A DNA stretch of 64,000 nt, taken from the NCBI GenBank assembly GCA_029762625.1, contig JARVGI010000002.1:126772-190771 (forward strand). Direction: 5' to 3'. The DNA comes from Methanomicrobiaceae archaeon (GTDB lineage Archaea; Halobacteriota; Methanomicrobia; Methanomicrobiales; Methanomicrobiaceae). A program made the translations under genes and the position numbers. The notes below the pieces were generated by a model. That model was not told where the DNA came from, did no database searches, and saw only the letters and a list, made by a program, of their open reading frames with translations. Of this stretch, positions 2,162 through 22,531 are shown piece after piece (within the stretch, counting starts at the first letter, position 1; every line of letters starts with the position of its first letter).

Positions 2162-2539
2162 ATGGCTAACAGGGAAATTGACAGTATCAAGCAAATTGAG
2201 GCAGATTCCCTCTCTCTTCTTCAAAAAGAACGAGAAGAAGCGGAAAAACGGATTCGGGATGCAGAGAGGAACGCCGAAGAGTTGATACGACGCAGGCAGC
2301 ATGAAGCACACGAAACTGTGCTCCGGATGAAGGTCGAAGCCGAGGAGGCAGCAATCGCTGAAGCTGAGAAAATCCGGAGAGAAGGAGAGAAAAAGGTCGA
2401 AGAAATGAAAAAACACCATCTCCACAGACTTTCCATCGCTGTCAAATCCATTCTAATGCATATTTTGGGTGAGAACAGTGCTGTTTCCGCAAACGATGAA
2501 ACAGGTATATCTCGGGTTGCACCGGGCGTACCTGAATGA
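2162..2539 (+). CDS. atpH: A-type ATP synthase subunit H (peripheral stalk), cluster 1
   Basis: This 125-residue protein is almost entirely a charged helix (EREEAEKRIRDAERNAEELIRRR and so on). It matches the long coiled coil of subunit H, which pairs with subunit E in the peripheral stalks tying A1 to the membrane stator. It is the first gene of a nine-subunit cluster in the order H-I-K-E-C-F-A-B-D, as in other euryarchaea. Its 3' end overlaps the start of subunit I by about 60 bases, an unusually long overlap suggesting translational coupling. The last 25 residues (after HILGEN) are not coiled-coil-like and lie wholly in the overlap. Family assignment rests on position and coiled-coil character. 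Confidence 0.85.
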   Translation: MANREIDSIKQIEADSLSLLQKEREEAEKRIRDAERNAEELIRRRQHEAHETVLRMKVEAEEAAIAEAEKIRREGEKKVEEMKKHHLHRLSIAVKSILMHILGENSAVSANDETGISRVAPGVPE

Positions 2540-4460
2540 ATTGCTCTCGGATCTGCATGAAGCAGGGCTTCTTGAGATCACCAATATCTGGGATGCCGAA
2601 GGCACGCTCTGCGCTGCCCTGAATGAGGGTGAACGCCGTCCCGAAATTGAAAAATGCGCTGAGAGTATTCAGGATATCGCCACCCTCATTGATGTGCTGG
2701 GGGAATCCCGCGAGGAGGAGGAGGAGGGGATCCTGCACCTTCTGCTGTCACCCCGGCCGCCACGGAAAATCTCTGTGGAGAAAAAAGATTTCCACCAGCT
2801 CTGCAGGGAAGCGGAGGAGGTCATGTCCGGAGCCGGTGCAGCAGTCGACGTGAAACGATCGCTCGATGCCCTTCGTGCACGCATCGGGATTTTACATGAA
2901 CAGCAGGAGTCGATCGCCATGCTGGCGCCATTTGAGCTGGATCTCGGGTATCTCGGAGAGTCGGAGCTTCTCTACACGGTTCCGGCGGTGATCGACACCC
3001 CGGCATACCGGCACTTTGCTGAAAAGATCGATAAAGAACGCTTCGACACCCTCCATATCTCCAGGATTGCTGCCGGATCGCAGACGGTGGTGATCCTCAC
3101 GACGGTCAGGGAGGATCGGGACCATCTCGATCATCTTCTCCAGGAGCCATATATCAGGATCCTCGAGATCGAACCCTTCACCGGTGCCCCCCGGGAAACG
3201 ATTGCCGCCATCCAGTCTGAAATCGAGGTGCTCGGCCGGGAGGAACGTGAACTCATGGATGTGTTGCGGGCGACCGACGCGCGGTACGGCGAACACCTGC
3301 GGCAACTTCACGAGGAGGTGTGCATTGAAAAGGACCGCCTGATGACGCACACCCATTTCGGCTGGACGCACGATACGGTGGTGATTGAAGGCTGGGCGGC
3401 GGAGAAGGACTGTGACAGGCTGCAGGAGATCTGCGATGCGTCGACGGCGGGGCACGTTTTCTGCAAATTCCATGATCCGGACGGCACGTCGGACAACGTT
3501 CCCGTATGCTATGACAATCCAGGGTGGCTGCGCCCCTTTGAGGCGGTCACTACGATGTTTGCCCGGCCGCGGTACGGAGAAGTCGACCCCACCCTCTTTA
3601 CTGCGCCCGTTCTCATTCTCTTCTTCGCCCTCATGCTGGGCGACGCGGTCTACGGGCTGATTATCACCGTCATCGCGGCAGTGCTGTACCGGGGGGCGGG
3701 AACGGTCAGCAGCACCATCCGCGACGGGAGCATCCTCCTCATGGCCGCGGGTGTGGCGACAATCGTATCGGGCATCCTCCAGGGCGGGTATATGGGCGAT
3801 TTCCTCCCGCGATTTCTGGGAATAACACCGCCCTTTGTGATAATCAACGCACTGGAGGAGCCGATCGTGTTTCTCAGGCTCGCCCTCATCATCGGTATCG
3901 TCCAGATAAATCTGGGCCTGTGCATCGCGGCGTACCAGAACCTGAGGAAGAAGAGGTATACGGAGCTGCTCAAGGGCCAGGTATCGTGGTTTTTCCTGCA
4001 GCCTGCCGCAGCCATCATGCTGTTTGCCTTTTTCGGGTGGGGGACGTTTGCGCGCGCCGTGATGATCGCGTCGGCGCTGGCAGCGGTTGTCGGGATTGGC
4101 CTGATCCTGCTCAGGTCCGGCCCGCTCGGTTTTTTCGATCTCACGGGGTTTCTCGGGGACTGGCTCTCCTACGCACGCCTTCTCGCCCTCGCGCTGGCGA
4201 CGGGAGGCATCGCGATGACGGTGAACATACTTGCCCAGATGGTCGCCGGCGACAACCCCCTCTGTATCATCCTCGCGGCGTTCATTTTTATCGCCGGACA
4301 GACGTTTAATTTTGTCCTGCAGACGCTGGGGGCCTTCATTCATTCACTGAGGCTGCAGTTTGTCGAGTTCTTCGGGAAATTCTACACCGGAGGGGGGAAG
4401 GAATTCTCCCCCTTCATGGCAAAAAGAGAGATTACCGAGCTCAATGGAGGTGATGTCTGA
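2478..4460 (+). CDS. atpI: A-type ATP synthase subunit I (a-subunit, ion half-channels), cluster 1
   Basis: This roughly 660-residue protein has a soluble N-terminal half (to about residue 370) that forms the stator arm, then a C-terminal membrane half with about eight helices starting near FTAPVLILFFALMLGDAVYG. The conserved LSYARLLALALATG segment holds the arginine (about R567) that faces the rotor carboxylate in this family. The GTG at 2478 is preferred because GGGTGAG (2468-2474) sits just upstream and the resulting N-terminus (MLFPQTMKQVYLG) fits the family; a GTG at 2469 is also possible. The stop overlaps the atpK start (TGATG), and GGAGGTGAT lies within its last codons, so I and K are tightly coupled. 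Confidence 0.95.
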   Translation: MLFPQTMKQVYLGLHRAYLNELLSDLHEAGLLEITNIWDAEGTLCAALNEGERRPEIEKCAESIQDIATLIDVLGESREEEEEGILHLLLSPRPPRKISVEKKDFHQLCREAEEVMSGAGAAVDVKRSLDALRARIGILHEQQESIAMLAPFELDLGYLGESELLYTVPAVIDTPAYRHFAEKIDKERFDTLHISRIAAGSQTVVILTTVREDRDHLDHLLQEPYIRILEIEPFTGAPRETIAAIQSEIEVLGREERELMDVLRATDARYGEHLRQLHEEVCIEKDRLMTHTHFGWTHDTVVIEGWAAEKDCDRLQEICDASTAGHVFCKFHDPDGTSDNVPVCYDNPGWLRPFEAVTTMFARPRYGEVDPTLFTAPVLILFFALMLGDAVYGLIITVIAAVLYRGAGTVSSTIRDGSILLMAAGVATIVSGILQGGYMGDFLPRFLGITPPFVIINALEEPIVFLRLALIIGIVQINLGLCIAAYQNLRKKRYTELLKGQVSWFFLQPAAAIMLFAFFGWGTFARAVMIASALAAVVGIGLILLRSGPLGFFDLTGFLGDWLSYARLLALALATGGIAMTVNILAQMVAGDNPLCIILAAFIFIAGQTFNFVLQTLGAFIHSLRLQFVEFFGKFYTGGGKEFSPFMAKREITELNGGDV

Positions 4461-5182
4461 TGGCGATGGGGACCGGCACGGTGCTGGTGGTGATCGGTGC
4501 CGGCCTCTCGGTGGGGCTCTCGGCAATCGGTGCCGGCATCGGGGTTGGCATTGCAGGCGCGGCTGCTTCAGGCGTCACGGCGGGTGACAAGGAGAAATTC
4601 GGACTGGCACTCGTATTTCAGGCACTGCCGCAGACGCAGGGGATCTATGGCCTGCTGGTCGCCATCCTGCTGCTGATGTCCACCGGTATCCTGGGAGGCA
4701 ATCCGGTGGATGTACCGGTATCGGTGGGGCTTACCGCGATCGGCGTGGGTATCGCCGTCGGGCTTGCGGGGCTCTCGGCAATCGGCCAGGGCATTGCGGC
4801 AAGCAGCGGAGCGGCTGTTTCGGCGAGAGATCCGGAACTCATGGGAAAAGGCCTTGTATTTTCTGTGCTCCCCGAGACGCAGGCAATATACGGGTTGCTG
4901 GTGGCCATTCTCCTCATGGCCTTCAGCGGCATGTTCACCGGCGTATTTACCATCTCCGAAGCGGTGGGATTTGCGGCGATCGGGAGCGGTCTTGCAGTCG
5001 GGTTTGCGGGTCTTTCGGGAATCGGGCAGGGTATTACCGCAGGAGCCGGTATCGTGGCTACCGCGCAGCAGCCGGAGGTGATGGGCAGAGCACTCATTTT
5101 CGCGGTCATGTCGGAGACGTTCGCCATATTCGGCCTGCTGGTCGCCATCCTGATCATGTTCGGGAGCGGTCTGATGGGCTGA
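4460..5182 (+). CDS. atpK: A-type ATP synthase subunit K, triple-hairpin rotor proteolipid with Na+-type ligands
   Basis: This 240-residue protein consists of three fused two-helix hairpins of about 80 residues each, so six membrane helices rather than the usual two. The ion-site carboxylate position is Gln58 in hairpin 1 (LPQTQ), Glu139 in hairpin 2 (LPETQ) and Glu219 in hairpin 3 (MSETF). The partner Gln is present in helix 3 (AIGQG, Q110) and helix 5 (GIGQG, Q190) but is Ala25 in helix 1. By analogy with the Enterococcus hirae Na+ rotor (ligands Leu, Thr, Gln, Gln, Glu), this gives two complete Na+-type sites per subunit and one dead position. A triplicated proteolipid with Gln in hairpin 1 is known from Methanocaldococcus jannaschii. 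Start: ATG overlapping the atpI stop. Confidence 0.95.
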   Translation: MAMGTGTVLVVIGAGLSVGLSAIGAGIGVGIAGAAASGVTAGDKEKFGLALVFQALPQTQGIYGLLVAILLLMSTGILGGNPVDVPVSVGLTAIGVGIAVGLAGLSAIGQGIAASSGAAVSARDPELMGKGLVFSVLPETQAIYGLLVAILLMAFSGMFTGVFTISEAVGFAAIGSGLAVGFAGLSGIGQGITAGAGIVATAQQPEVMGRALIFAVMSETFAIFGLLVAILIMFGSGLMG

Positions 5183-5201
5183 GGGTGAAGGCGGCGGCAG
5201 T

Positions 5202-5801
5202 ATGGGAATGGAGATGATAATCGCCAGAATCAAGGCGGACACGGATGCCGAGGCCGAGAGGATCCGATGCAGCGCAGAGGAGCGGATAACGGCTCTCCAC
5301 GATGCGGCACGGATCGAGGCGGACAGGGAGCACGACCGCATCATTGCAGAAGGGATGCGAGCCATCAGGGTTCTTTCCGGCAGGATACGTTCCCAGGCAG
5401 TGATGGATGCACGGCGCATGGTCCGCGAAGAACGGGAACGGGAGATCGCGCTCTGTTTCTCCGAAGCGGAGAGAGAGCTGAATCACCGCATACAGACGGC
5501 GGACTACGAGCGTATTTTGAGAAACCTGATCCGGGAGGGTATCGATGATCTGGGCGTCGACGAGGGTGTCGTCATCCCCACCGAGCGCGACCGGAACCTC
5601 GTCCGGTCCATTCTTTCTGCCAGTTCCGATCGCTACGGGGGATTTGTGGTAAACCCCGAATGTGTACTTTCCGCCGGCGGCGTTGTCATCAGGTCCGCTG
5701 ATGGAAGGATTACCCTCGATAACACCATCGAAGCGAGAATCGAGCGGTTCAAAAGCGATCTGGTGTATATCGTCGCGAACGTGCTCTACCAGGAGGCCTA
5801 G
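5202..5801 (+). CDS. atpE: A-type ATP synthase subunit E (peripheral stalk), cluster 1
   Basis: This 199-residue protein has a long charged N-terminal helix (IKADTDAEAERIRCSAEERI and on) and a compact C-terminal domain ending in the typical pattern GGVVIRSADGRITLDNTIEARIERF. Subunit E pairs with H and caps the A3B3 head. The gene follows atpK after 19 bases and is followed by atpC after 2 bases. A GGGTGAAGG sequence precedes the ATG at 5202; an ATG at 5214 right after GGAG is an alternative. Residues in the C-terminal domain agree with the minus-strand copy (GRIVVRNTLESRLERS), although the helices have diverged greatly. Confidence 0.93.
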   Translation: MGMEMIIARIKADTDAEAERIRCSAEERITALHDAARIEADREHDRIIAEGMRAIRVLSGRIRSQAVMDARRMVREEREREIALCFSEAERELNHRIQTADYERILRNLIREGIDDLGVDEGVVIPTERDRNLVRSILSASSDRYGGFVVNPECVLSAGGVVIRSADGRITLDNTIEARIERFKSDLVYIVANVLYQEA

Positions 5802-5803
5802 CA

Positions 5804-7000
5804 ATGGCGGCAGGCGGCGATGTGCTCGGTCTCTCTCTCCTCGGCGGGGGTTCGGTGCCGCCTTCCATTCTGGCAGCGGTCTTCGCCCTCGTGCTGTTCG
5901 TGATCCTTTTCATCACCAAACTGATGGGGTATTTCAAGATATTGTTGAATATCGCGACGTTCACATATCCGAATGCATTCGTTTCGGTGAAAGGCAATCC
6001 CTGTATCCAGGAGCGCGCGCTGAACCGTCTCATCGAGAGCGGCACCATTCCGGAGGTGCTGGCACTGGTGAGGGGGTACGGATTTGCGATCGATATCGGG
6101 GACTATGCGACGATGGAAGAGATTGACCGGTGCTTTGAGGAATATTTCCGCAGTGAATGCACGGAAATCGAACATATGGTCCCCGTTTCCGTGCAGCCAT
6201 TTTTCAGGGCTTTCAGCATGTTCCAGGAAACAGAAGTCCTGAAAGCGGCGTTCCGCCTGAAACATGCGAGTGTGGCGGCACGGGAGATGGAATCACTGCT
6301 CGGTCCGGTGGGCATTATCAGCCAGCCCTTGTTGCAAAAAATGATTGATGCGCGGAATGTCGACGAACTGGTCCGCCTCCTTCAGCCCACCGTCTACGGA
6401 CCCACGCTTCTCAGCGCGCTTGGCGATGCGGCAATGGAGCGGACAACGCTTCCCTTCGAGCGCGCGCTTGACACGTTTGCATGCGAGCATCTTCGCTCCT
6501 CGCTTGCGCACAGCGATGCCCTCCAGACACCACCCCTCATGGACTTTGTTGCCTTCTATTTCGACATCACCAATATCAAAATCGCTCTCAGGGGATTGAG
6601 GGACGGGGTGGAGATGGATGTACTGGCGCAGTATTTCCTCCCCACGGGGCATCATATCACGCGCGATGTGCAAAAAAGGATGTCCGAAGCCAGATCCGTC
6701 CATGATATGCATGGGCATCTCCAGCACACACCGTACTTCGACGCCTTCAATGCGGCATTGATGGCGTACGAAAAGAGCGGAAGCCTTCAGCCCATTGAAG
6801 CGGCTCTCGACCGGGCGCTGCTGGATGCGGTCATCAGGCTCTCGCTGGTGTACCATTCCGGTCCGGCCACATTGCTCCGGTATCTCGTCGCGAAAAAGTT
6901 CGAACTCCAGAATGTCAGGGCGATTGTATGGGGTCTCCAGAACAGGATTGCCCCTGAAACGGTGAGAACACTGCTGATCCGGCAGGGAGGTGCGGCATGA
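5804..7000 (+). CDS. atpC: A-type ATP synthase subunit C (central stalk socket) with extra N-terminal membrane helix
   Basis: Subunit C connects the central stalk to the rotor ring. This copy is 398 residues, about 50 longer than the 349-residue minus-strand copy. The extra length is N-terminal: a Gly-rich start, then a strong hydrophobic helix (SILAAVFALVLFVILFITKLMGYF, split here only for description; residues about 20-43), then the family start FTYPNAFVSVK, equivalent to YVNARVRGMK in the other copy. The all-helical body follows, with the conserved FYFDITNIKIALRG and RYLVAKKFELQNVRAI. GGAGG lies 8 bases before the ATG at 5804, so the extension is probably translated. Membrane anchoring of a rotor-socket subunit is unusual to me; I recall somewhat longer C subunits in class I methanogens but cannot check. 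Confidence 0.9.
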   Translation: MAAGGDVLGLSLLGGGSVPPSILAAVFALVLFVILFITKLMGYFKILLNIATFTYPNAFVSVKGNPCIQERALNRLIESGTIPEVLALVRGYGFAIDIGDYATMEEIDRCFEEYFRSECTEIEHMVPVSVQPFFRAFSMFQETEVLKAAFRLKHASVAAREMESLLGPVGIISQPLLQKMIDARNVDELVRLLQPTVYGPTLLSALGDAAMERTTLPFERALDTFACEHLRSSLAHSDALQTPPLMDFVAFYFDITNIKIALRGLRDGVEMDVLAQYFLPTGHHITRDVQKRMSEARSVHDMHGHLQHTPYFDAFNAALMAYEKSGSLQPIEAALDRALLDAVIRLSLVYHSGPATLLRYLVAKKFELQNVRAIVWGLQNRIAPETVRTLLIRQGGAA

Positions 7001-7326
7001 AGGTGGCGGTCATCGGCGATATGGACGTGACCTCGGGATTCGGGTTGATCGGGGTGCACTCCCGTTTTACCGCCACACAAAAGAGTGAGGTGGAGGCCGC
7101 CCTGTCTGCATGCCTCGACGATCCCGCTGTGGGCGTGATCATCCTGCTCGCCCCCCTTGCAGAGATGGTCCGTGATTCCCTCACCCGGATCAGGAATACA
7201 CGGGTGTACCCTCTGATCGTCGAAATTCCGGGAAAGACCGCCCCTTCGCACGAGGAAGACGCGATAGCAAGGCTGGTGGGAAAAGCGGTCGGCATCCCGC
7301 TTCACGGGGGAGGGCTGTCACGATGA
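6997..7326 (+). CDS. atpF: A-type ATP synthase subunit F (central stalk), cluster 1
   Basis: This 109-residue Rossmann-like protein opens with [20 protein letters not shown] and has the central [14 protein letters not shown] strand, the classic subunit F pattern. F and D form the rotating central shaft, and F helps regulate ATP hydrolysis in this family. The start codon overlaps the atpC stop by four bases, and its own stop overlaps atpA by four bases, so C, F and A are translationally coupled. The C-terminal half ([23 protein letters not shown]) corresponds to the flexible helix that contacts the catalytic head. Confidence 0.93.
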
Positions 7327-9122
7327 TCGAAGAAGGAACGATCGTCATGGTGACCGGACCGGTCGTGACCGCCGATACCATGACCGGGTCGAGGATGTAC
7401 GAGCTCGTAAAAGTGGGGCATGAACACCTCATCGGGGAGATCATTGAACTGGAGGGCGATATCGCGACCATCCAGGTCTACGAGGAGACGACCGGGATCA
7501 AGCCGGGAGAGCCCGTCGTGGGAACAGGGATGTCGCTGTCCGTGGAACTGGGACCGGGGCTGCTCGGCACCATCTATGACGGAATCCAGCGTCCCCTGCC
7601 GCTCCTGCACGAGGAGAGCGGATTTTTTATCAGGCGCGGCATCCAGGTCCCTTCGCTTGACAGGCAGAGATCCTGGGAGTTTACGCCCGTCGCCGGTGCC
7701 GGGGATGCTGTCGGGCCGGGGGATGAACTGGGTCGTGTTGCCGAGACGAATACCATATCCCACAGAATTCTCGTCCCGCCGGGGACGGAGGGCACGGTCG
7801 TGGAGATCGCTCCGGCAGGGCGCTACACAATCGAAGATGTCATCGCGCGGGTGAGGGGGGACCGTGATGTAGCGTCCGTCTGTATGATGCACCGCTGGCC
7901 GGTACGCAAATCAAGGCCTTTTGCAGAGAAACTGGAGCCGAAGACGCCCCTGATCACAGGTCAGCGGGTGATCGATACGTTTTTTTCCATGGCAAAAGGC
8001 GGCACGGCGGCGGTTCCCGGGCCGTTCGGATCGGGGAAGACGGTTGTGCAGCAGCAACTGGCAAAATGGGTCGATGCGGACATCATCGTCTACGTGGGGT
8101 GCGGCGAGCGTGGGAACGAGATGGCCGACGTGCTGCGTGAATTCCCCGGTCTTGAAGACCCGAGGACCGGCGAGCCGCTGATGAAGCGAACGGTGCTCAT
8201 CGCCAACACCAGCAATATGCCGGTGGCGGCGCGTGAGGCAAGCGTCTATACAGGTATCACCATTGCCGAATACTACCGTGATATGGGGTACGATGTCGCC
8301 CTGATGGCGGATTCCACCTCCCGCTGGGCGGAGGCGCTGCGGGAGATATCGGGGCGGCTCGAGGAGATGCCGGGTGAAGAGGGGTACCCGGCGTACCTCG
8401 CCTCTCGCCTCGCGGATTTCTACGAGCGGGCAGGGAAAGTCCTCACGCTGGGCCGGGAAGGCCGCAGCGGATCGATCTCGGTGATCGGTGCGGTGAGTCC
8501 GCCGGGGGGGGATTTTTCCGAACCGGTGACGCAGAACACCCTCCGCATCGCCAAGGTCTTCTGGGCACTGGATGCGGACCTTGCCAACAGGAGGCACTTC
8601 CCGGCGATCAACTGGCTGGAATCCTATTCCCTGTACGGGGGAGAGGTGAGCGAATGGTGGCACGAGCGCATGGGCAGCGACTGGGATGCCATGAGAAGAC
8701 GGATGATGGGCATTCTCCAGAAAGAAAGTGAACTCGAGGAGATCGTACAGCTCGTCGGCCCGGACGTGCTCCCGGACGCCGACAAACTTGTTCTCCTCGA
8801 GGCCGAGATTATCAGGGAGAGTTTCCTTTTCCAGAACGCCTTTCATGCGGTCGATACGTTCTGTTCGCCCGCACGGCAATACCGGATGATGCAAATTCTT
8901 CACCGGTTTGATGAGCTGGCACACCACGCCCTCACCGAGGGCGCTGGTTTTGAAAAAATCAACGACCTGCCGGTACGAAGCAGCATGGCTCGCATGGCGA
9001 GGATCCCGGAGGACACGTATGAAGGAGTCTATGGTGAAATCGAGGAGGAGATGCGCGACCAGTTCTCGCGCATCTCCCCCCAGGGACCCGGAGGCCGTGA
9101 AGGGATGGCGGTGGATGAATGA
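7323..9122 (+). CDS. atpA: A-type ATP synthase catalytic subunit A, cluster 1
   Basis: This 599-residue protein is full length for the family. The beta-barrel start [16 protein letters not shown] is followed by the non-homologous region, then the P-loop GPFGSGKT (residues 233-240), the standard archaeal form. Next come [12 protein letters not shown], with the catalytic glutamate in the GER motif, and [48 protein letters not shown] and the C-terminal helical domain. It hydrolyses or makes ATP at the A/B interface. It starts four bases inside atpF and its stop overlaps atpB. The minus-strand copy diverges throughout and has a different P-loop, which argues against recent duplication. Confidence 0.98.
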
Positions 9123-10525
9123 TGCGTTCCAGCAGTAACAGGGAATACTCGACCGTTGCAAAGGTCAGCGGACCGTTGATTGTGGTGCACCGGATCAGGG
9201 ATGTGGCGTACGGCGAGGTGGCGGAGATCAGGCTGCCATCCGGGGAAAAACGGCTGGGGCAGGTGCTTGAAGCGCGCAAAGACCTTGCCGTCGTGCAGGT
9301 GTTCGGCGGGACCCGTGATCTCGATACCGATATCACCTCCATCCGGTTTACGGGCTCATCGCTCAAAATGGCTGCATCGGAGGAGATGCTCGGGCGGATC
9401 CTCGACGGTGCCGCCCGGCCGCTGGACGCAGGCGAGGGCGTCATCCCCGAAGTGATGCTTGACATCCATGGATATCCTCTCAACCCGTATTCGAGAGACT
9501 TCCCGCGGGATTTCATCGAGACGGGCATTTCCTGCGTCGACGGGATGAATACCCTTGTCCGGGGGCAGAAACTGCCTATCTTCTCGGGAGCGGGGCTTCC
9601 CCACAACCAGCTTGCCGCCCAGATCACGCGGCAGGCGAGGGTTCTGGGAGAGGAGGAGGAATTTGCCGTGATATTCGCGGCGATGGGAATCACGCACGAG
9701 GAAGGGAATTTCTTTGTCAGGGATTTTCAGAATACCGGCGCCCTCGCCCGCACGGTGATCTTCCTCAACCTCGCCGACGACCCGGTGATCGAGCGGATCA
9801 TCACTCCGCGGCTTGCCCTGACCGCTGCGGAGTTTTTCGCGTTCGAGAAGGACATGCACGTGCTGGTCATCCTCACCGACATGACCAACTACTGCGAGGC
9901 ATTGCGGGAGATCGCCGCCTCACGCGAGGAGGTGCCCGGGCGCAGGGGCTATCCCGGGTACATGTACACCGATCTGGCCTCATTGTACGAGCGTGCGGGA
10001 CGTATCAGGGGTAAAACCGGCTCGATCACCCAGATGCCCATCCTGACCATGCCGGACGACGACATCACCCATCCCATCCCCGACCTCACCGGCTACATCA
10101 CGGAGGGGCAGATCGTGCTCTCCCGCGATCTCCACCGGAAAGGCATTTATCCGCCTATCGACGTCCTCCCCTGCCTCTCCCGCCTCATGCAGGGGGGGAT
10201 CGGCCTGGGACGGACGCGGGAAGATCACCCTGATGTCAACACCCAGCTTTATGCCGCATATGCGCGGGGGAGAAAGCTGCAGAGTCTTGTTGCCGTTGTC
10301 GGCGAAGAAGGCCTGAGCAGCACCGATCGCCAGTATCTCGCATTCTCCGACCGTTTTGAGAAGGAATTCGTCACCCAGGACTATACGGTGGGACGAAGCA
10401 TCGAGGAAACCCTCGAGACTGCATGGTCGCTCCTCTCCCTTCTCCCGGAATCGGAGTTGAAGAGGATCGACCGTGAGCTCATTGCCCGCTATCGCCCGAG
10501 GACGGAGGGGGAGCGCTATGCATAG
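9119..10525 (+). CDS. atpB: A-type ATP synthase non-catalytic subunit B, cluster 1
   Basis: This 468-residue protein begins [13 protein letters not shown] and has the degenerate nucleotide-binding segment [17 protein letters not shown], where a P-loop lysine is absent as expected for B. It also has [45 protein letters not shown], the strongest signature of the family (read as two adjacent motifs). Three B subunits alternate with three A subunits in the head. The start overlaps the atpA stop (ATGA). The stop is a TAG that overlaps the atpD start by eight bases, and this normal-length protein shows that TAG acts as an ordinary stop in this genome. Confidence 0.97.
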
Positions 10526-11159
10526 AAAAGGGATACGCGGGGTCCGGCCGACACGTATCGAACTGCTGAAACTGAGAAAACGGGAAGTTCTGGCACAGAA
10601 AGGGCATGACCTGCTGGAAGAAAAACGCGACGCCATGGTCATCGAATTGTTCCGCCTGCTCAATGATTTCCGCAACCGGCGGCGTGCGCTCGACATCGCG
10701 ATGAGCGATGCGTATACAAAGCTGGAACTGGCGCAAATGGCGGTGGGAAACCGGAAACTGCGGGAAATTTCCTGCGGTGTTCCGCCGAAGGGCGAGATAG
10801 TGATCGATGTGCGGCACATCATGGGCGTCGGCATGCCGGTGGTCCGTGCCGCCGGGCCGCCTCCCTCCTCCCGGCTCCGGGGATACGGCTATGCCTTCAC
10901 GTCCGCCGCGGTGGATGAGGCTGCGGACAGATTCGAGCGGGTATACGGGGAGGCGCTCAGCCTTGCGGAGATGGAAGGATCCCTGGTGCGGCTGGCGCAG
11001 GAGATCGAGCGGACCAAACGGCGGGTGAATGCGCTCGAATCGATCGTGATCCCGCAGCTGCAGGCAACGCAGAAACATATCGAGACCCATCTCGAGGAGC
11101 TGGAACGTGAAGACATCTTCAGAAGAAAGCGGACAAAGATGCTGCTGCAAAAAACCTGA
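10518..11159 (+). CDS. atpD: A-type ATP synthase subunit D (central shaft), cluster 1
   Basis: This roughly 213-residue helical protein has the diagnostic N-terminus [32 protein letters not shown] (abbreviated) and the C-terminal [23 protein letters not shown], the two long helices of the rotating shaft. The ATG at 10518 is chosen over an earlier GTG-type start at 10473. It follows GGAGGGGGAGCGCT and leaves only eight bases of overlap with atpB, and it aligns with the other D subunit in the window. The last 15 residues are basic ([13 protein letters not shown]). It is followed after 18 bases by a small membrane-protein gene. Confidence 0.95.
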
Positions 11160-11480: not shown

Positions 11481-11816
11481 ATGCCGGAAATTACCGACGA
11501 TGAACTTGGCAGGAGGATGTTCCAGATCCGCAAGGAGCGTCACGTAGAGGAGACGATCGATAAAATCCGTCACTCCCTTGGAGACGAATGGACGGCAATC
11601 CCCCACGAAGAAAAGAAAGTCCTCCAGGATCTGCTCGGGGATGCGTGGATCGCCATCGGGCGGCAGGAATGGGGACGGTACGCGTTCAGCAGGCTCACAA
11701 AGGCGGATCTGGATAGGCTGATCGGTATCGGGTATGCAAGGGAACAGAAGAATATCCAGGAATCAGCCGCTATTGAAGAGGTAAAGGCAGTACTTTCCCA
11801 TACCCTGCAGCCCTAG
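11481..11816 (+). CDS. Small helical protein, function unknown
   Basis: This 111-residue soluble, charged protein (begins MPEITDDELGRRMFQIRKER) has no recognised domain and no membrane helix. It lies in the 490 bases between the 3' ends of the two ATPase clusters, with its own AT-rich element (CTTTTTATTCTT, about 11421-11432) and an AAGGT sequence just before the ATG, so it may be transcribed independently. Its stop lies 16 bases from the 3' end of the opposing atpD. It contains a regular helical layout (EEKKVLQDLLGDAWIAIGRQEW, then SRLTKADLDRLIGIGYARE). An ATG at 11472 is in another frame. I do not recognise it. Confidence 0.6.
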   Translation: MPEITDDELGRRMFQIRKERHVEETIDKIRHSLGDEWTAIPHEEKKVLQDLLGDAWIAIGRQEWGRYAFSRLTKADLDRLIGIGYAREQKNIQESAAIEEVKAVLSHTLQP

Positions 11817-11832: not shown

Positions 11833-12531
11833 TCATGCGGTCTTGATGGCGGCATCCCCGAGTGCGTGCTGTGGAAGAGGGGCGGTTTTCTCCTTCTTTG
11901 CTTTCTTTTTCCGGTCCAGTATTTTTTTCACTTTTTTCAGCCTGAAGAGGTCCTCCCGTTCCCGCTCTTCGATGGTGATCCTGATGTATTTTGCCTGTTT
12001 CTGGAGTTCCGGAATCATCACCTGGTCGAGTGCGTTCACCCTTCGACGGGTCATCTGGATCTCCCCGCCAAGCCTCCTCAACGCGGTTTCCGTCTCTGCA
12101 AGCGAGATGATGAGATCCAGCTCGCGTTCAAATTTTTCCGCCGCCTCGTCGATGCGTCCGCTCACGCCGATGATGCTGTAGCCCCGCTCGCAGATGGTGC
12201 GCGAGACGCTCTGTTTCTCGATCACCGGCACCGGCACGCCCATGATATTTTTCCCCTTGATATCCAGGCTTATGAAACGCTTGGCGGCAAATGATGCCGA
12301 TGACAGGGCAACCGGATCATCGACCGCCTTTGCCGCGAGCAGGGAGCGCTGTGCCGATTCCGAAAGTATACCGAGGTCTTTTCGGGAATCTGACACCATA
12401 TCCATGAGCTGGAATAATTCATGGATGAGCGCATCCATCTTCTCTTTGAGGAGGTCCCTTCCCTGCTCTGCGAGGCGGATCTGCGCATTTTTTTTAATGA
12501 GCTCCATCCGCGTCGGATTAACCTGCTCCAC
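11833..12531 (-). CDS. atpD: A-type ATP synthase subunit D (central shaft), cluster 2
   Basis: This roughly 232-residue protein carries [22 protein letters not shown] at the start and [19 protein letters not shown] near the end, the shaft signatures of subunit D. The C-terminus is a long basic tail ([17 protein letters not shown]) extending about 20 residues beyond the cluster 1 copy. The GTG at 12531 gives the expected family start and follows GGGGAGG; an ATG at 12549 without a clear ribosome site is the alternative. Either way it overlaps the end of atpB. It is the last gene of the minus-strand cluster. Confidence 0.95.
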
Positions 12532-13929
12532 GCGCCTCCCCCCCTGCATAGTGCGGATGGTATTTCTGGATGAACTCCATCTTCACCCTCTTTAATTCGT
12601 ACTCGGGCAGCAATGAGAAGAGTTCCCACGCAATCTCGAGGGTCCTCCCGATGCTCCGGTCTTCGTTCCCCTGGGAAACGAACTCCTTTTCGAATTTGTC
12701 CGCAAAGTTCAGGTATTTCTTATCCACCTCGGTCAGCGCCTCTTCGCCGACGATGGAAACCAGTCTGCGGAGATCCCGCCCGTAGGCATAGGACGCATAG
12801 AGCTGGTCTGCCACGTTGCGATGGTCTTCGCGTGTCTTTTCCGGCCCTATCCCGAGGTTCATCAGGCGTGAAAGACAGGGGAGGACATCGATGGGCGGTT
12901 TTGCACCGCGCCGGAAGAGGTCACGGGAGAGCACGATCTGCCCCTCCGTGATGTAGCCGGTGAGATCGGGAACCGGGTGGGTGATGTCGTCATCCGGCAT
13001 GGTCAGGATGGGGATCTGGGTGATTGATCCCCTGTTTCCCGTAATGCGTCCCGCCCGCTCGTACAGTGAGGCCAGATCGGTGTACATGTACCCCGGATAG
13101 CCCCGCCGCCCCGGCACCTCTTCGCGTGCCGTCGATATCTCCCGCAGGGCTTCACAGTAATTTGTCATGTCGGTGAGGATGACCAGCACGTGGAGACCGT
13201 GGGCGAATGCGAGGAATTCGGCGGTGGTGAGAGCGCACCGGGGCGTGGCAATCCTCTCGATGGTCGGGTCGTCGGCGAGGTTCATGAAAAACACCACCCT
13301 CTCCAGCGCCCCGCTGCGCTCGAAATCCCGCATAAAGAAGGATGCCTCCTTGTGCGTGATCCCCATCGCCGCGAACACCACGGCGAACTGCTCCCCTTCC
13401 CCCAGCACCTTTGCCTGCCGCGCGATCTGGGCGGCAAGTTCGTTGGCGGGGAGTCCCGCCCCCGAGAAAATGGGCAGTTTCTGCCCCCGGACCAGGGTAT
13501 TCAGCGCATCGATTGCCGAAACGCCGGTCTGGATGAAGTCGGAGGGTTTATCACGGGCATAGGGATTGATAGGCATGCCGTTGATGGCAAGGCAATCTTC
13601 GGGGACAACTGGCGGGCCCCCGTCCCGCGGGATCCCGATCCCGTTCAGGATCCGCCCGAGCATGTCGTACCCGACAAAGATCTTCGGCGGTTCGCCGGTG
13701 AACCTGACCTTCGTCTTCAGGTCGTCAATCCCGCTGGTTCCTTCATATACCTGTATGATTGCCACCTCGCCGGAGACATCGAGCACCTGCCCCGTCCGCT
13801 CTTCGCCGTCGGGTGCCGTGATCTTTGCGATCTCGCCGTATGAGACCCCTTTCGGACTTTCGACAAATATGAGGGGTCCGGAGACGTAATTGACCGTTTT
13901 ATATTCCTTGGAAGCAAGGCCCTGCTGCA

Positions 13930-13930
<1 letters not shown>
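12518..13930 (-). CDS. atpB: A-type ATP synthase non-catalytic subunit B, cluster 2
   Basis: This 470-residue protein has the family start [14 protein letters not shown], the degenerate loop [17 protein letters not shown], and the [17 protein letters not shown] and [22 protein letters not shown] motifs. It is clearly homologous to the plus-strand B but differs at many positions even in the conserved core, for example [20 protein letters not shown] against [20 protein letters not shown]. The start overlaps the atpA stop (TAATG). The C-terminus ends in a short Gly-rich tail that overlaps the atpD start region. Confidence 0.97.
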
Positions 13931-15669
<1,739 letters not shown>

Positions 15670-15674
15670 GCCCT

Positions 15675-15992
15675 TCACCCCACCACGATGTTGTACCCGA
15701 TTGCTTTCCTGAGCAGTTGCTCGATATACCGCGACCGATCGGCCCCCCTCGTTCCCACGGGAATGGGAATGATGATGGGCCGGTAGGTCTTCTCGATCCT
15801 GTCCATCAGCCGTTCATCGACCATTGCCATGAAATCCTCGTTTACGGCGACGATGCCGGTATCGTCCTTTAAAAGGAGGGTGGGGAGCACGGTGCGCGCC
15901 TCTTCGAGGGTTGCGATTTCCAGCACGTCCACACCCGCCAGACGGAATCCCGGCGCGGTATCCGGATCGGTCACCACGACAAATTTATACAT
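15675..15992 (-). CDS. atpF: A-type ATP synthase subunit F (central stalk), cluster 2
   Basis: This 105-residue protein begins [21 protein letters not shown], the subunit F Rossmann start, with the strand [17 protein letters not shown] in the middle. The ATG at 15992 is chosen because AAGGAGGAGGTG lies 5-10 bases upstream, and it overlaps the atpC stop by eight bases. An open frame reaches further upstream but would run deep into atpC. The C-terminal helix ([20 protein letters not shown]) is typical. It couples translationally to atpA. Confidence 0.93.
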
Positions 15993-17034
15993 AGAGCACC
16001 TCCTCCTTGATCTCCTCTTCGGGCAGGTACGCGCCTTTACAGTGGGAAATAATGCGGATATTGGCGATTTCGTTGTTTTTTGCCACGATATACGCGATCG
16101 CTCCGGCAATGCTCAGGGGATCGCCCCGAAACATCTGGATCCCCTGATCGATGATATACCGGTCAAGCTCTTTCTCGTATTCGGAAATCGTCTCGTTTCC
16201 CACGTTTTTTTCCGGCAATGTGCTGAGAAACGAATACGGCGTATCCCGCAGTGCCGATCTGGCGGCACGGATCGACCCGCTGTTCAGGAGATCGAGCAGC
16301 GCCGGCATGTCCAGGGCCTTGCCCCCTTCGATGAGCACGTTCTTTCCGTCCTCGGGTTTCACCCCGTCCCGGATGAGCCGCAGGACGCTCTTGATATTGA
16401 CCACGTCGATCTCGGTGGTGAGAAGATCCCGCGCCTTCCTGTCGTCGACGGATCTCCCGGCAAGCAGCCGGAGTGCGCGCTCGTAATAGAACCGGTCGAG
16501 AGCGTATTCAAGAATGGCCAGATCCTTTTTTTCCGCGTATTTGCCGAACCGTTCCGTCAGGGGCCGTGCATAGTCGCTCCCCCATGTGGCAAGGAGATCG
16601 ATCACGCCCCGGACGTCGGGCTGCCTGACCAGTTCGAGCAACGTCACCTCGTCCAGCTGTCCTGCCGGCACCAAACAGGCAAGAATCTCATCGGCCGGGG
16701 CATTGATATTTTTCCCCCTCATAATGGTCTTGATGTTCTGGATGTCCCATTTTTCGAGGAAAATACGCACATGTCTCTCGAATTTCTCATTCATGACCAG
16801 CGATAACAGCAGCCTGTACGTCTGCACGAGATGATGGCGCAGTGCCTGATCGATGAGGCCCAGTCCCGACGACTGGACGCTCGCCTTTTCGATTCCCTCG
16901 TGATAGGAAGTTTTTTCGAGCTCGGTGATGATCGCATCGATATCGGGCTTTTTCATCAATTTCTCGAAAAACTCGCGATCCATCAGGTGGCGCTTCATTC
17001 CTCGAACCCGTGCATTCACGTATTCGATGTACAC
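15985..17034 (-). CDS. atpC: A-type ATP synthase subunit C (central stalk socket), cluster 2
   Basis: This 349-residue protein is of normal family length, with the standard start YIEYVNARVRGMKRHLMD and no N-terminal membrane helix, unlike the cluster 1 copy. Helical repeats carry WDIQNIKTIMRGK, TEIDVVNIKSVLRLIRDG and a C-terminal KNNEIANIRIISHCK, the spaced NIK/NIR motifs of the family. The GTG at 17034 is preferred: it follows GGTGAT, lies directly after the atpE stop (17036) and gives the family N-terminus. An ATG at 17064 would overlap atpE by 29 bases. It links the F-D shaft to the K ring. Confidence 0.93.
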   Translation of the reverse strand: MYIEYVNARVRGMKRHLMDREFFEKLMKKPDIDAIITELEKTSYHEGIEKASVQSSGLGLIDQALRHHLVQTYRLLLSLVMNEKFERHVRIFLEKWDIQNIKTIMRGKNINAPADEILACLVPAGQLDEVTLLELVRQPDVRGVIDLLATWGSDYARPLTERFGKYAEKKDLAILEYALDRFYYERALRLLAGRSVDDRKARDLLTTEIDVVNIKSVLRLIRDGVKPEDGKNVLIEGGKALDMPALLDLLNSGSIRAARSALRDTPYSFLSTLPEKNVGNETISEYEKELDRYIIDQGIQMFRGDPLSIAGAIAYIVAKNNEIANIRIISHCKGAYLPEEEIKEEVLYV

Positions 17035-17035
17035 G

Positions 17036-17620
17036 CTAATCACCAAAGAGCGTCGAAAAAACATCCATTCTCAGCGTCTCCTTTGACCTTTCAAGTCTTG
17101 ATTCGAGCGTATTTCGGACGACAATGCGTCCATCGGGCGAACTGGCGTCCAGTCCGCCGATGCAGGTGATGTCATCTACAACCTCACAATGAAGGCCGAT
17201 TTCATCGACGATGCTCCGGCAGAGGTCCGCATCCCGTGCGTCGATATGCAGCCTGATGTCCTGCTCATCCAGTGTCCGCACCGCTTCTTCGAGCAGATGT
17301 CGAAATGTCGTTGCATAAGAGGATGAGTTCCGTATCCCTTCCAGTTCATGCCGTGCAGTGTCGAATGCCATCTCGAAGAGCCGGTTCTGTTCCAGGGTCG
17401 TCGCCGTTTTTGCCTCATGTGCGGCCTTGTAGCGCTGCATGACTCGTTCGCGCGCAACCGTTCTGGCAGCCTGCTCCCTGGTACGGCTCACGATGCTTTC
17501 TGCTTTTTTCCCTGCTTCCTCCCGCGACCTTGCTGCCTCTGCCTCACTATTTGTTCTGATCCGACTGATCTCTTCTGCGGAGTGCTCCTCCATTTCCCGC
17601 TTCAACTGGTCGAGTTTCAT
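17036..17620 (-). CDS. atpE: A-type ATP synthase subunit E (peripheral stalk), cluster 2
   Basis: This 194-residue protein has an extended charged helix (QLKREMEEHSAEEISRIRTN and on, to about residue 110) followed by the C-terminal domain with CIGGLDASSPDGRIVVRNTLESRLERS, diagnostic of subunit E. Its ATG overlaps by four bases the stop of a short open frame that fills the gap after atpK. The heterodimer of E and H forms the outer stalks. The TAG stop is immediately followed by the atpC start. Confidence 0.93.
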   Translation of the reverse strand: MKLDQLKREMEEHSAEEISRIRTNSEAEAARSREEAGKKAESIVSRTREQAARTVARERVMQRYKAAHEAKTATTLEQNRLFEMAFDTARHELEGIRNSSSYATTFRHLLEEAVRTLDEQDIRLHIDARDADLCRSIVDEIGLHCEVVDDITCIGGLDASSPDGRIVVRNTLESRLERSKETLRMDVFSTLFGD

Positions 17621-17760: not shown

Positions 17761-17973
17761 TCACAGGACCAGTATCATTGCGGCGACCACGAACCCTAAA
17801 ATGACCATCGTTTCCGGGATAGCTTCAAGAATTATCACCGCTCCCGTGAGTTCGGGATTTTCTGCAATTGTTCCTGCCCCTGCGGCTCCGATACGACTCT
17901 GTGCCCAGGCAGTACTGATTGCGCTGACACTGATTGCGAGTGCCGCTCCCAGTGCTACTCCTGTATCCACCAT
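17761..17973 (-). CDS. atpK: A-type ATP synthase subunit K, single-hairpin rotor proteolipid
   Basis: This 70-residue protein is two helices only, the ordinary proteolipid form. The ion carboxylate is Glu54 in IPETMVILGF, and the partner Gln25 in helix 1 (AWAQSRIGAAG) aligns with Gln110 and Gln190 of the cluster 1 protein. The Thr after Glu is kept, but the next ligand position is Met56 rather than Gln, so the full Na+ ligand set is not present. Ion specificity cannot be settled from this; H+ or dual use is plausible. The gene is separated from atpI by 140 bases of AT-rich DNA with a likely promoter, which would help make the many copies needed per ring. A GGTGG sequence precedes the ATG. Confidence 0.93.
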   Translation of the reverse strand: MVDTGVALGAALAISVSAISTAWAQSRIGAAGAGTIAENPELTGAVIILEAIPETMVILGFVVAAMILVL

Positions 17974-18113: not shown

Positions 18114-20036
18114 CTAATTCGTACGCTCCTGCCGCTTGAAGGGGGTGTAGAACGTGCCGCCCCCTTCATAAAATTTCGAAAAGCACTCCACCACATGGAG
18201 ACGTATCGAATGCAGGGACGGGCTGAACATTGCCAGGACTATGTTTAAGGTATGCAGGAGTATTGCCATCGTCACCCCGATCAGCACGATCCCGAGTGCC
18301 CCGCCGAGCGTGTTTGCCACCATTGCCAGAATGACGGAGGCCATGCCAATCGCCATAAGTCGAGCATAGGATAGAATATTCCCAACGGTTCCCATGATTT
18401 CGATCAACCCCATCGGCCCGCCGCCATAGATGATGAGGGGGACCCCCACGATGAGCGCCACGATGCCCGCCGGGAGCAGCACCGGGGGGAGCGCTCCTGT
18501 AGCAGCGCCCAGTATGAGGATCAGACCGGAAATTGCGGAAATCATGCCTGCCTTTTCGGCAACATGCTTTCTGTTCTGCACGGCGATGGCATTCATGATC
18601 CCGAGGCCCAGCCCCAAAAACACGTGGAGGACCCCGATCGCCACGGCGAGAATCAGCATGGGCAGCATCGCCTCCATCCGGTTCAGGCTTATTCCCATGA
18701 CGTGAACAGGGTGGATCCAGCCCATGACCTCGCCCAGATCGCCGAAGAACTCTCCGTAGAGGAATCCGAAGAAGATGGTGGGAATCGAGCATATGATCAT
18801 GATATTCATGAGGCTCCGGAGCCATTCGAGGTCGGAAAACCGCCGTCGCATGATGAGGCCAAACCCGAGTATCACCAGCCCGTAGCCGATGTCACCGACC
18901 ATGAGGCCGAAAAACAGGGGGAAGAAGATGGCGAGAAACGGACTGGGGTCCACTTCAAGGTATTTGGGGGGGCGTACCAGCTGCATCAGGAACTCGAAAG
19001 GTTTGACAATTCTCGGATTTTCGTACAAAGTGGGGGCCAGATTATAGTCGTCGCGGCTCAGGCTGAGTTCGGTGACGACCACCCGGTTCCCGAATGTCCG
19101 GGCAAGCGCATCACTGGTCGCGGCCAGGTATTTTTCGGGCACCCAGCCCATGACCATGCAGGTGTGGTCGGTGTATCCGAAGTGGCCGAAGGCGTCAATC
19201 TCCTTCTTTTTATCGATAAGGATTTTTTCAAGGACGGACAGCTCAAGGTACCACTCCTCCGACAGGGAGGCGAGCTGCTCGTTGACAGAATCCCTTTCGG
19301 CGTTCGCCTGGCGGGTCTGCTCGTCGATCAACTCCAGAACTTCGTTGAAGGGCCTGCCCATGTATTCAGGAGGAAGCCGGACTTCATTGACATTCTTGGA
19401 GTAGATAAATGCATGGAAGGCATCCGCGTGCCGCTTGCTGAAGACGGTGATGGTGGCAATCGTCTCCTCATCGATCTCGGCGGATATGAGCTCGAACTGG
19501 TCGTCGGTGATCTGTTCAAGCTCCTCCCCGATGAGCCCGATCACGTCCTCAAACTCCTTCTGGATCAGGAGGACCGTTACTTCAAACCCCTCTAAAAACG
19601 GCAGCTGCTCCTCGAGGGGCTGGATTTTTCGGATGGTCTTTTCATACCGTTCCAGTGCGGCAACCCTGAACTGGAGATCGCTTTTTCTGGCTGCAAGGTC
19701 CCGCGTTGTTGTTTCAAGTTTCCGGAATACCTCATTCACCCGGTCAACAAGAGCTCCATGCTCCATCCAGTACAGCGTTTCGTAGATCTCATGTTCCTGC
19801 TCCCGGTCGACCCTGGTGGCGGGCAGGGTTCGAATCACCCCTCCGATTTTGACGAGCAATGCGGTGATGTCATCTCCGTATTCCGTCTTCCATCTTTTCA
19901 GGCCGATGGTCCGGGGGGAGAGCCGGTCGGTCACATCCTCAAGGTGCAGGGTACCCGTGTGATACAGCACGTCCACGATATTGTGGAATTCTTTCCTCGG
20001 GCCTACGACCAGAATGCCCTTCATTTTCAGGAGCAT
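18114..20036 (-). CDS. atpI: A-type ATP synthase subunit I (a-subunit), cluster 2
   Basis: This 640-residue protein has the soluble N-terminal arm (start MLLKMKGILVVGPRKEFHNIVDVLYHTGTLHLEDV, abbreviated family pattern) with long coiled-coil stretches, then a membrane half from about residue 360 (FLAIFFPLFFGLMVGDIGYG). LSYARLMAIGMAS contains the essential channel arginine (about R559). It has about eight membrane helices, including a run near LLILGAATGALPPVLLPAG. It follows atpH after 10 bases. Compared with the plus-strand copy, the soluble half is only weakly alike, while the membrane half keeps the family motifs. Confidence 0.95.
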   Translation of the reverse strand: MLLKMKGILVVGPRKEFHNIVDVLYHTGTLHLEDVTDRLSPRTIGLKRWKTEYGDDITALLVKIGGVIRTLPATRVDREQEHEIYETLYWMEHGALVDRVNEVFRKLETTTRDLAARKSDLQFRVAALERYEKTIRKIQPLEEQLPFLEGFEVTVLLIQKEFEDVIGLIGEELEQITDDQFELISAEIDEETIATITVFSKRHADAFHAFIYSKNVNEVRLPPEYMGRPFNEVLELIDEQTRQANAERDSVNEQLASLSEEWYLELSVLEKILIDKKKEIDAFGHFGYTDHTCMVMGWVPEKYLAATSDALARTFGNRVVVTELSLSRDDYNLAPTLYENPRIVKPFEFLMQLVRPPKYLEVDPSPFLAIFFPLFFGLMVGDIGYGLVILGFGLIMRRRFSDLEWLRSLMNIMIICSIPTIFFGFLYGEFFGDLGEVMGWIHPVHVMGISLNRMEAMLPMLILAVAIGVLHVFLGLGLGIMNAIAVQNRKHVAEKAGMISAISGLILILGAATGALPPVLLPAGIVALIVGVPLIIYGGGPMGLIEIMGTVGNILSYARLMAIGMASVILAMVANTLGGALGIVLIGVTMAILLHTLNIVLAMFSPSLHSIRLHVVECFSKFYEGGGTFYTPFKRQERTN

Positions 20037-20046
20037 GGCTCTTCAC

Positions 20047-20370
20047 TCAGACCTCAAACGCAACTGCCGAGAGGATCTGTTGCACTGCCGCAGGCAGGTT
20101 CTCTTCCCCGCGCGCAAGGGTCTTTGCTCTCTCCTGTGCAGCCCCCTCCCCGATCGTCTCGATCTCCTGGCCCAATTTCGCCATTTCCGCATCGAAGTAC
20201 CGTTGCGCTTCTTCGATTCCCTCCTGCTCGGCCTGCGAAAGAATGCGTGCGGAATCCGCCCGTGCTTCGGCAATGACCTGTTCCGCGTATCGTTTTGCTT
20301 CTTCGAGCCGCATGCAGCATTCTTCCTCTGTGTGACGAATTTCCTGAAGCAGTCCTTTTTCGGCCTCCAT
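20047..20370 (-). CDS. atpH: A-type ATP synthase subunit H (peripheral stalk), cluster 2
   Basis: This 107-residue protein is one long coiled coil (HTEEECCMRLEEAKRYAEQVIAEARADS and on) with a short hydrophobic end (AAVQQILSAVAFEV). That is the architecture of subunit H, partner of subunit E in the peripheral stalk. It is the first ATPase subunit gene of the minus-strand cluster, 11 bases after a small upstream gene; GGAGGAGGAAG precedes the ATG. Sequence identity to the other H is low, as is common for this subunit, so the call rests on position and coiled-coil pattern. Confidence 0.85.
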   Translation of the reverse strand: MEAEKGLLQEIRHTEEECCMRLEEAKRYAEQVIAEARADSARILSQAEQEGIEEAQRYFDAEMAKLGQEIETIGEGAAQERAKTLARGEENLPAAVQQILSAVAFEV

Positions 20371-21796: not shown

Positions 21797-22531
21797 ATGA
21801 ACAGAAGTATGTGCTTGATAATTGTGGGACTCTGCATTGTGGGCACGATCCTGATCGCAGGGTGCGCAGAGCAGACAACGCCGGAAGCAACGCCGGCCCC
21901 TACTGAGGAGGTAACTCCCATGGTGCCTGAAATCACGCCCGAAGAGGTGGCGCCGGCAGAGGAGACGACTCCCGGGGAAGTGACAGAGGAAGCGACACCA
22001 GAGGTGACAGAGGAGGCCACCGAAGAAGCGCCGCCGGCCGCGGGCCAGACCGACATCTTTGGCACACTGGAGACGATGCCCGAATACTCGACTCTGCGTG
22101 ACCTGCTGGTCGCCGCGGGTCTTGACCAGACCCTGTCAACCGATGAGGTGCTCGCATCCGGTGCTCAATACACGCTATTTGCACCCAATAACGGGGCATT
22201 TTCCGCACTTGAAGAAGGTACCGAGGAAGCCCTGATGGCTGATATTGAAAACCTTCTCACGCCGGTCCTCTCCTACCATGTGGTGGAGGGCGTCTACACC
22301 GCCGAAGACCTTCAGGATGTCACCTTCCTGGATACGCTCGAGGGAACCCGCCTCTCTGTGGTAACGGTAGATGGTGGGGTAACCGTTGACGGTATCGCCG
22401 TTGTCGAGCCGGATATACTCGCCACGAACGGTGTTATTCACGGCATCGATGCGGTGCTGATTCCGCCGGGGATGACAGTGACGCCCGGAGGGGCGACCGA
22501 AGAAGCGAACGAAACATCCTCGGGGTATTAG
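21797..22531 (+). CDS. Fasciclin (FAS1) domain lipoprotein
   Basis: This 244-residue secreted protein has a hydrophobic signal ending in a lipobox-like LIAGC (Cys23), so it is probably lipid-anchored outside the membrane. Residues about 24-82 are a low-complexity linker rich in Glu, Thr and Pro. One FAS1 domain follows (about 84-228), with the family motifs YTLFAPNNGAFSAL, LLTPVLSYHVVEG and GVIHGIDAVLIPP. FAS1 domains mediate adhesion and matrix contacts. The gene stands alone with a strong ribosome site and promoter. The DNA of the linker is repetitive in GAGGTG/GAAG units, as expected for its composition. Confidence 0.93.
   Translation: MNRSMCLIIVGLCIVGTILIAGCAEQTTPEATPAPTEEVTPMVPEITPEEVAPAEETTPGEVTEEATPEVTEEATEEAPPAAGQTDIFGTLETMPEYSTLRDLLVAAGLDQTLSTDEVLASGAQYTLFAPNNGAFSALEEGTEEALMADIENLLTPVLSYHVVEGVYTAEDLQDVTFLDTLEGTRLSVVTVDGGVTVDGIAVVEPDILATNGVIHGIDAVLIPPGMTVTPGGATEEANETSSGY

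Follow-up and report, generated by a model that had tools for sequence, protein, structure and literature searches.

Can a single archaeal cell keep rotary ATPases that carry different ions, and different numbers of them, per turn? This question is raised by a 64,000-nucleotide stretch from a Methanomicrobiaceae archaeon (GenBank assembly GCA_029762625.1, contig JARVGI010000002.1, positions 126,772 to 190,771), here called the window, which belongs to a genome of 2.2 Mb in 28 contigs that is 99.8% complete. The window contains two complete A1A0-ATPase operons placed tail to tail: operon 1 (2162-11159, plus strand), with the gene order H-like, I, K, E, C, F, A, B, D, and operon 2 (20370-11833, minus strand), with the same order. 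The rotor (K) subunit of operon 1, K1, fuses three hairpins, and that of operon 2, K2, is a single hairpin. The best explanation overall, to which we give a probability of about 0.72, is that K1 forms a Na+ motor built from three hairpin types (First, Middle and Last, described below), likely with 8 Na+ in a 12-hairpin ring, beside a K2 motor that is probably coupled to H+.

The K1 chain gives three matches to Pfam ATP-synt_C (PF00137; 1.8e-52, 175.9 bits) and scores 270.6 bits, against a cut-off of 211, with the NCBIfam model PRK06271, a K model of 220 positions. The gene and its parts are as follows.

4460..5182, plus strand: K1 (AtpK/AhaK), three-hairpin rotor subunit of 240 residues, identified by open reading frame, Pfam, NCBIfam and AlphaFold2
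4490..4681, plus strand: K1 hairpin 1, First type, with the donors Thr59-Gln60 retained and the acceptor gone (Gln58 for Glu, Val29 for Gln)
4739..4924, plus strand: K1 hairpin 2, Middle type, with the full ligand set Gln110, Glu139, Thr140 and Gln141
4979..5164, plus strand: K1 hairpin 3, Last type, with Gln190 and Glu219 retained and Phe221 in place of the donor Gln

The ligand residues verified in K1 are Q58-T59-Q60, Q110, E139-T140-Q141, Q190 and E219-T220-F221. By register, site a combines Glu139/Gln110 with Thr59/Gln60, and site b combines Glu219/Gln190 with Thr140/Gln141; Enterococcus-type Na+ ligands and the Leu-Pro backbone are in register at these two of the three K1 sites. The third site, between the last hairpin and the first hairpin of the next chain, lacks the carboxylate (Gln58), the helix-1 Gln (Val29) and one donor (Phe221). 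In Enterococcus hirae, the Na+ ligands are Glu139 and Gln110 of hairpin 2 and Thr64 of hairpin 1 (PMC2359735). Its rotor subunit NtpK (2bl2, 8wci) shares with K1 the Na+ ligands, a dead first hairpin (GVG, PxTQ) and a live last one (ETY in NtpK). We take Gln65 of its hairpin 1 to be a further Na+ ligand. As read from its sequence, a K1 chain is clearly predicted to carry two complete Na+-type sites and one dead junction. The ligand residues are retained in relatives with three hairpins per chain (N=3), and in the aligned N=3 set every ligand position is invariant at both sites. Collapse of the repeats during assembly was considered and ruled out as unlikely, because no two of the three repeats exceed 72% identity in DNA. 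A K1 that is 98% identical occurs in a metagenome bin filed as Methanoculleus sp.; the nearest relatives of the host are Methanomicrobiaceae, and related loci include those of Methanospirillum, Methanolinea, Methanogenium and Methanocalculus.

The preliminary description of this DNA had already read K1 as three fused hairpins with two Na+-type sites and one dead site per chain and with the ligand set of NtpK. The first point is borne out by the Pfam matches and by an AlphaFold2 model with three hairpins, the best of five (predicted local distance difference test score, pLDDT, 85; predicted template modelling score 0.84); since it stands far above the other four (pLDDT at most 62), this model is support and not proof. 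The second agrees with the register and retention of the ligands, and the third with the alignment and with superposition on the E. hirae K ring 2bl2, the closest solved structure to the model (root-mean-square deviation 1.2 across 150 columns). The alignment of both K proteins to solved rotors that the same description had proposed places K1 nearest to 2bl2 and matches K2 to Thermus K. All the residues that it named in K1 and K2 (Q25, E54, T55 and M56 in the latter) were confirmed except Ala25. In the other hairpins of K1 (110/139 and 190/219) and in K2 (25/54), a spacing of 29 residues separates the helix-1 Gln from the carboxylate that follows it; therefore, the hairpin-1 counterpart of Q110 is Val29 (GIGVG versus AIGQG), a position at which NtpK has Val34.

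How far does this layout extend? The family survey was seeded with K1-like sequences and covered up to 30 loci per genome search and up to 80 per contig scan; its records are mostly metagenome bins. Hairpins were counted in 146 intact distinct chains from the fetched loci, with two broken frames excluded. There are two hairpins per chain in 33 cases, three in 39, four in 22, six in 48, 12 in three and 13 in one; none of these 146 chains has 5, 7, 8, 9 or 10 hairpins, and the size divides 12 in 145, the exception being the 13-hairpin chain. First hairpins lack the carboxylate and the helix-1 Gln and retain Thr-Gln (PQTQ or PMTQ), Middle hairpins have all ligands (PETQ or CETQ), and Last hairpins retain Glu and Gln and have lost the donor Gln (ETF, ETY, ETI, etc.). 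All but 7 of the 146 chains fit exactly a First hairpin, n Middle hairpins and a Last hairpin, a layout that gives N-1 complete sites per chain and of which NtpK is the shortest case (First-Last). When 103 hairpins from 22 representative loci in several phyla were compared, the most similar hairpin elsewhere was of the same type for 102 (22/22 First, 59/59 Middle and 21/22 Last).

The exceptions are instructive. Two 12-hairpin chains (L057, L071) are of the form 6+6 with a dead inner junction, while the third (L086) obeys the rule and has 11 sites. Some 6-hairpin chains (L078, L085, L138, L139) are of the form 3+3 with a half-decayed inner junction. At locus L224 (1418-2149, minus strand), a triple K has no carboxylate in any of its three hairpins (PQTQ in each) and adjoins a 77-residue single-hairpin K with a complete site (PETQ), an arrangement found in 1 of 3 genomes of its class. 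The 13-hairpin K (L102) is from Nanoarchaeota and has 12 sites. In genome G469, one contig end carries a piece of 5 hairpins and another a piece of 8 (contigs 8 and 10; L209, L210), probably parts of one split 13-hairpin gene, and the 8-hairpin chain L209 was rejected because the contig end cuts the gene and the matching 5-hairpin start lies on another contig of the same genome. Two apparent five-hairpin chains (L095, L225), both from metagenome bins, proved to be broken frames and were not counted, and an apparent 9-hairpin gene (G043, a 726-residue frame) is actually six hairpins preceded by an upstream open stretch.

As a separate observation, the Thermoplasmata K proteins (L052, L057, L071, L086, L138-L143; 4, 6 or 12 hairpins) carry about 120-185 additional N-terminal residues. 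This stretch resembles a signal peptide followed by an Ig-like domain (a Pfam PKD domain in L052, 2.4e-17), and the domain would project from the outer side of the ring.

What would these hairpin types mean for the rotor? In the mechanism that we propose, the First hairpin would only donate Thr-Gln, the Middle hairpin would both donate and accept, and the Last would only accept (Glu/Gln). Each K1 chain would then hold two internal Na+ sites, with a dead site at every chain-chain junction. Judging from the chain sizes, four K1 chains would form a 12-hairpin ring that carries 8 Na+ per turn, i.e. per 3 ATP (2.7 per ATP); the K2 rotor would carry 12 ions per turn. A 12-hairpin ring is favoured because no single ring size other than 12 (or 24) is divisible by all of 3, 4, 6 and 12. 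A tree of 60 catalytic subunits implies at least 12 size changes among the multi-hairpin forms, whose sizes there are 3, 4, 6, 12 and one 13. Under a crude null of uniform draws from 2 to 13, about 12 changes falling on divisors of 12 with one exception give a p of about 0.001. These sizes suggest, short of proof, a fixed 12-hairpin ring for N=3 and above, in which the fusion number would set the ions per turn; we consider such a ring more likely than not. The 13-hairpin chains (L102 and Methanopyrus) could close a ring alone.

Two other accounts of the chain sizes have to be weighed. In the first, the K1 ring exceeds 12 hairpins (18 or 24, for instance, from six or eight chains), and its ions per turn would equal or exceed those of K2, leaving no low gear. 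The E. hirae K, the closest solved relative, does form a ring of 20 hairpins from 10 two-hairpin chains (PMC12018189), and a ring of 18 would accommodate chains of 3 and 6, and one of 24 chains of every observed size except 13. However, a ring of 18 is incompatible with chains of 4 and 12 hairpins, a ring of 20 would permit chains of 5 and 10, neither of which was observed, and the one size that fits 3, 4, 6 and 12 is 12 or 24. The single-hairpin ring of Thermus has 12 hairpins (title of Toei 2007, cited in PMC12018189). We consider a larger ring unlikely, if still a serious competitor. The second account, that tandem gene doubling and shared descent alone produced the sizes 3, 4, 6 and 12 under no ring constraint, is likewise improbable without being negligible. 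It would fit the two 6+6 chains and the several 3+3 chains with decayed inner junctions, but it leaves the recurrent 4 beside 3 and 6 unexplained, intact chains of 8 and 5 were not seen, and the p of roughly 0.001 counts against it as far as so crude a null can.

The other genes of the two operons, on which the assignment of ions draws, are listed below with the small open reading frame between them and with K2.

2162..2539, plus strand: H/G-like peripheral stalk subunit of operon 1, assigned by position; no Pfam match
2469..4460, plus strand: stator subunit I1 (a) of operon 1, GTG start uncertain; nearest solved relative, E. hirae Na+-ATPase subunit I
5202..5801, plus strand: subunit E, operon 1
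5804..7000, plus strand: subunit C (rotor adaptor), operon 1
6997..7326, plus strand: subunit F, operon 1
7323..9122, plus strand: catalytic subunit A, operon 1, P-loop GPFGSGKT intact
9119..10525, plus strand: subunit B, operon 1
10518..11159, plus strand: subunit D (central stalk), operon 1
11481..11816, plus strand: small open reading frame of 111 residues between both operons, no Pfam match, conserved in four related loci
11833..12549, minus strand: subunit D, operon 2
12518..13930, minus strand: subunit B, operon 2
13930..15678, minus strand: catalytic subunit A, operon 2, P-loop GGFGTGKT intact
15675..15992, minus strand: subunit F, operon 2
15985..17064, minus strand: subunit C, operon 2
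17036..17620, minus strand: subunit E, operon 2
17761..17973, minus strand: K2, single-hairpin rotor subunit of 70 residues, with Gln25, Glu54, Thr55 and Met56
18114..20036, minus strand: stator subunit I2 (a), operon 2; nearest solved relative, Thermus H+-ATPase subunit I
20047..20370, minus strand: H/G-like peripheral stalk subunit, operon 2

Outside the operons, two paralogs (37% identical) of DUF1269/DUF6325-like type flank the twin ATPase region (1110-1673 and 25879-26466, both minus strand), and a fasciclin-domain lipoprotein-like protein with a Thr/Glu/Pro-rich linker is encoded nearby (21797-22531, plus strand).

Do the two motors use the same ion? The best solved match of stator I1 is the E. 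hirae Na+ enzyme (8wci, 1.2e-49; Thermus, 2.2e-11), so that E. hirae is the nearest solved relative of both K1 and I1. For I2, the best solved match is the Thermus H+ enzyme (1.3e-43; E. hirae, 2.6e-35). K2 matches Thermus K over its full length, and in both proteins Gln and Glu-Thr are present and Thr-Gln is absent. Complex 1 is probably an E. hirae-type, Na+-coupled A1A0-ATPase, and complex 2 is probably a separate, H+-coupled A1A0-ATPase with a Thermus-like single-hairpin rotor and one ion per hairpin. The operon pair would then probably differ in both ion and gear ratio. The difference in ions per turn that the preliminary description had expected would depend on the sizes of the two rings. 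A His-to-Gln change in the stator (GQTFN, as in E. hirae) was tried as an ion marker and dropped, as it is inconsistent among the multi-hairpin relatives.

It is quite unlikely that K1 is instead a proton rotor, or a mixed H+/Na+ rotor, that has kept its Na+ ligands by descent. Some Na+ ligands do persist in H+ enzymes, as Mulkidjanian et al. point out (PMC2359735), and the Thermus H+ rotor itself retains Gln and Glu-Thr; having the ligands is no proof of using them. Against this stand the invariance of the ligands at both sites in the aligned N=3 relatives and the equally E. hirae-like character of stator I1.

Are these the only ATPases of the cell? The preliminary description had expected a second, different rotor gene in the same cell, and the single-hairpin K2 in the complete operon 2 is such a gene. 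It had placed the two K genes beside each other; they are in neighbouring operons, 12.6 kb apart. Its count of two rotors per cell was right in that both are present and incomplete in that contig 27 of the genome carries one more complete A1A0 operon, the third (L006, 37000-56000; 3545-11566, minus strand). The K of operon 3 is a single hairpin of 82 residues (VIPETIVIFG), and its stator has the E. hirae Na+ enzyme as its closest solved relative. Identity among the three A and B paralogs of the genome is 60-65%, and among the stators just 26-29%. That operon 1 or 2 is silent or a leftover while the third alone makes ATP is very unlikely: a complete third operon does exist and each of the window operons is missing from some genomes of the order, but reading frames and P-loops are all intact and the pair is retained across several genera.

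The same two operons are convergent in four related genomes (L037-L040), whose copies of the intervening small open reading frame are 42-93% identical to that of the window. In Methanospirillum, Methanolinea and other Methanoregulaceae, an operon-2-type stator gene follows the multi-hairpin operon in tandem. Among 150 genomes of the order Methanomicrobiales, a multi-hairpin K was found in 47, an operon-2-type stator in 49 and both in 24, 11 of which have the two on one contig within about 16 kb. Co-occurrence is mildly above expectation (24 versus about 15) and confounded by kinship; the pairing claim rests on adjacency for this reason.

What could such a pair do? Speculatively, a membrane that holds both motors, each with its own ion and gear, would allow the two gradients to be traded via the ATP pool. 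At 45 kJ/mol ATP, our own arithmetic gives balance points of about 175 mV for an 8-site rotor and about 117 mV for a 12-site rotor, so both motors could run oppositely at one gradient. The full proposal joins a fixed 12-hairpin ring, in which ions per turn would equal 12 - 12/N (8, 9, 10 and 11 for N=3, 4, 6 and 12), to a twin locus acting as an ATP-linked exchanger made of a low-gear Na+ motor and a 12-site H+ motor; we offer it tentatively, at somewhat less than even odds.

Several points weigh against the reading of a Na+ K1 motor with a 12-hairpin ring beside an H+ K2 motor. The E. hirae ring of 20 hairpins at N=2 means that ring size varies across the family. Gene doubling and shared descent weaken the null described above, and sizes of 3, 6 and 12 could also come from tandem doubling. 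An AlphaFold2 model of the 12-hairpin chain L086, made for ring closure, had a pLDDT of 39 and was discarded. K2, which keeps Gln, Glu and Thr, may bind Na+, and the ion assigned to K2 and I2 reflects similarity to Thermus, which is distinct from measured ion use. Among more distant relatives, a genome often has the two operons unlinked or just one of them.

How much of this was known? The triple-hairpin K of Methanocaldococcus jannaschii has been described and its triplication noted (PMC2359735). The Methanococci triple K (PRK06271) resembles K1 in having three hairpins, the first without a carboxylate, and in its First-Middle-Last motif (A:PQTQ, Q:PETQ and Q:PETF), and occurs in 34 of 36 genomes of the Methanococci phylum-level group. 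This triple K is about 63% identical to K1 and has Ala at the position of Val29; unlike it, K1 is from another order, serves one of three A1A0 enzymes and adjoins a second operon. NtpK differs from K1 in having two hairpins and one site per chain, with 10 chains per ring (PMC12018189). K1 cannot take this form, with its two-hairpin K and 20-hairpin ring, as it has three hairpins and 20 is indivisible by 3; it would work like the E. hirae Na+-ATPase and be another form of it. K2 and I2 resemble the H+ V/A-ATPase of Thermus thermophilus, although that enzyme is bacterial. Methanopyrus kandleri also has a long fused K, of 13 hairpins (PMC2359735), but with a complete site in every hairpin and no dead junction. 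The c1-c2 rotor subunits of Acetobacterium woodii and Clostridium aceticum are likewise fused, with one hairpin lacking the carboxylate, which has been read as a lower Na+/ATP ratio (PMC7911925); unlike K1, they are F-type, form a mixed ring and have the dead hairpin second. For Methanospirillum hungatei JF1, three AoA1 clusters (Aha1, Aha2 and Aha3) have been described as a highly unusual trait, and by locus tag two of them are neighbours; the passages found there are silent on rotor architecture (PMC4704411). An M. hungatei bin (L043) resembles the host in that an operon-2-type I gene lies downstream of its three-hairpin K, but its operons are in tandem and those of the window are convergent. 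The triple K, the long K, carboxylate loss in fused rotors and a three-operon genome are already known. We found no paper on a 4-, 6- or 12-hairpin K, the First/Middle/Last code, two-ion pairing or twin A1A0 operons, in a search that left most subscription journals outside and is thus no proof of novelty.

Changes in the ion-to-ATP ratio of rotary ATPases are usually studied through ring size. The K1 family provides a natural series of 2 to 12 hairpins per chain in which the dead sites can be read from sequence, and it includes culturable methanogens (Methanospirillum, Methanogenium, Methanocalculus and Methanococci). If the ring has 12 hairpins throughout, this series would offer a clean test of ratio tuning by site silencing versus ring resizing, and the paired operons let one ask why a cell retains two or three gears.

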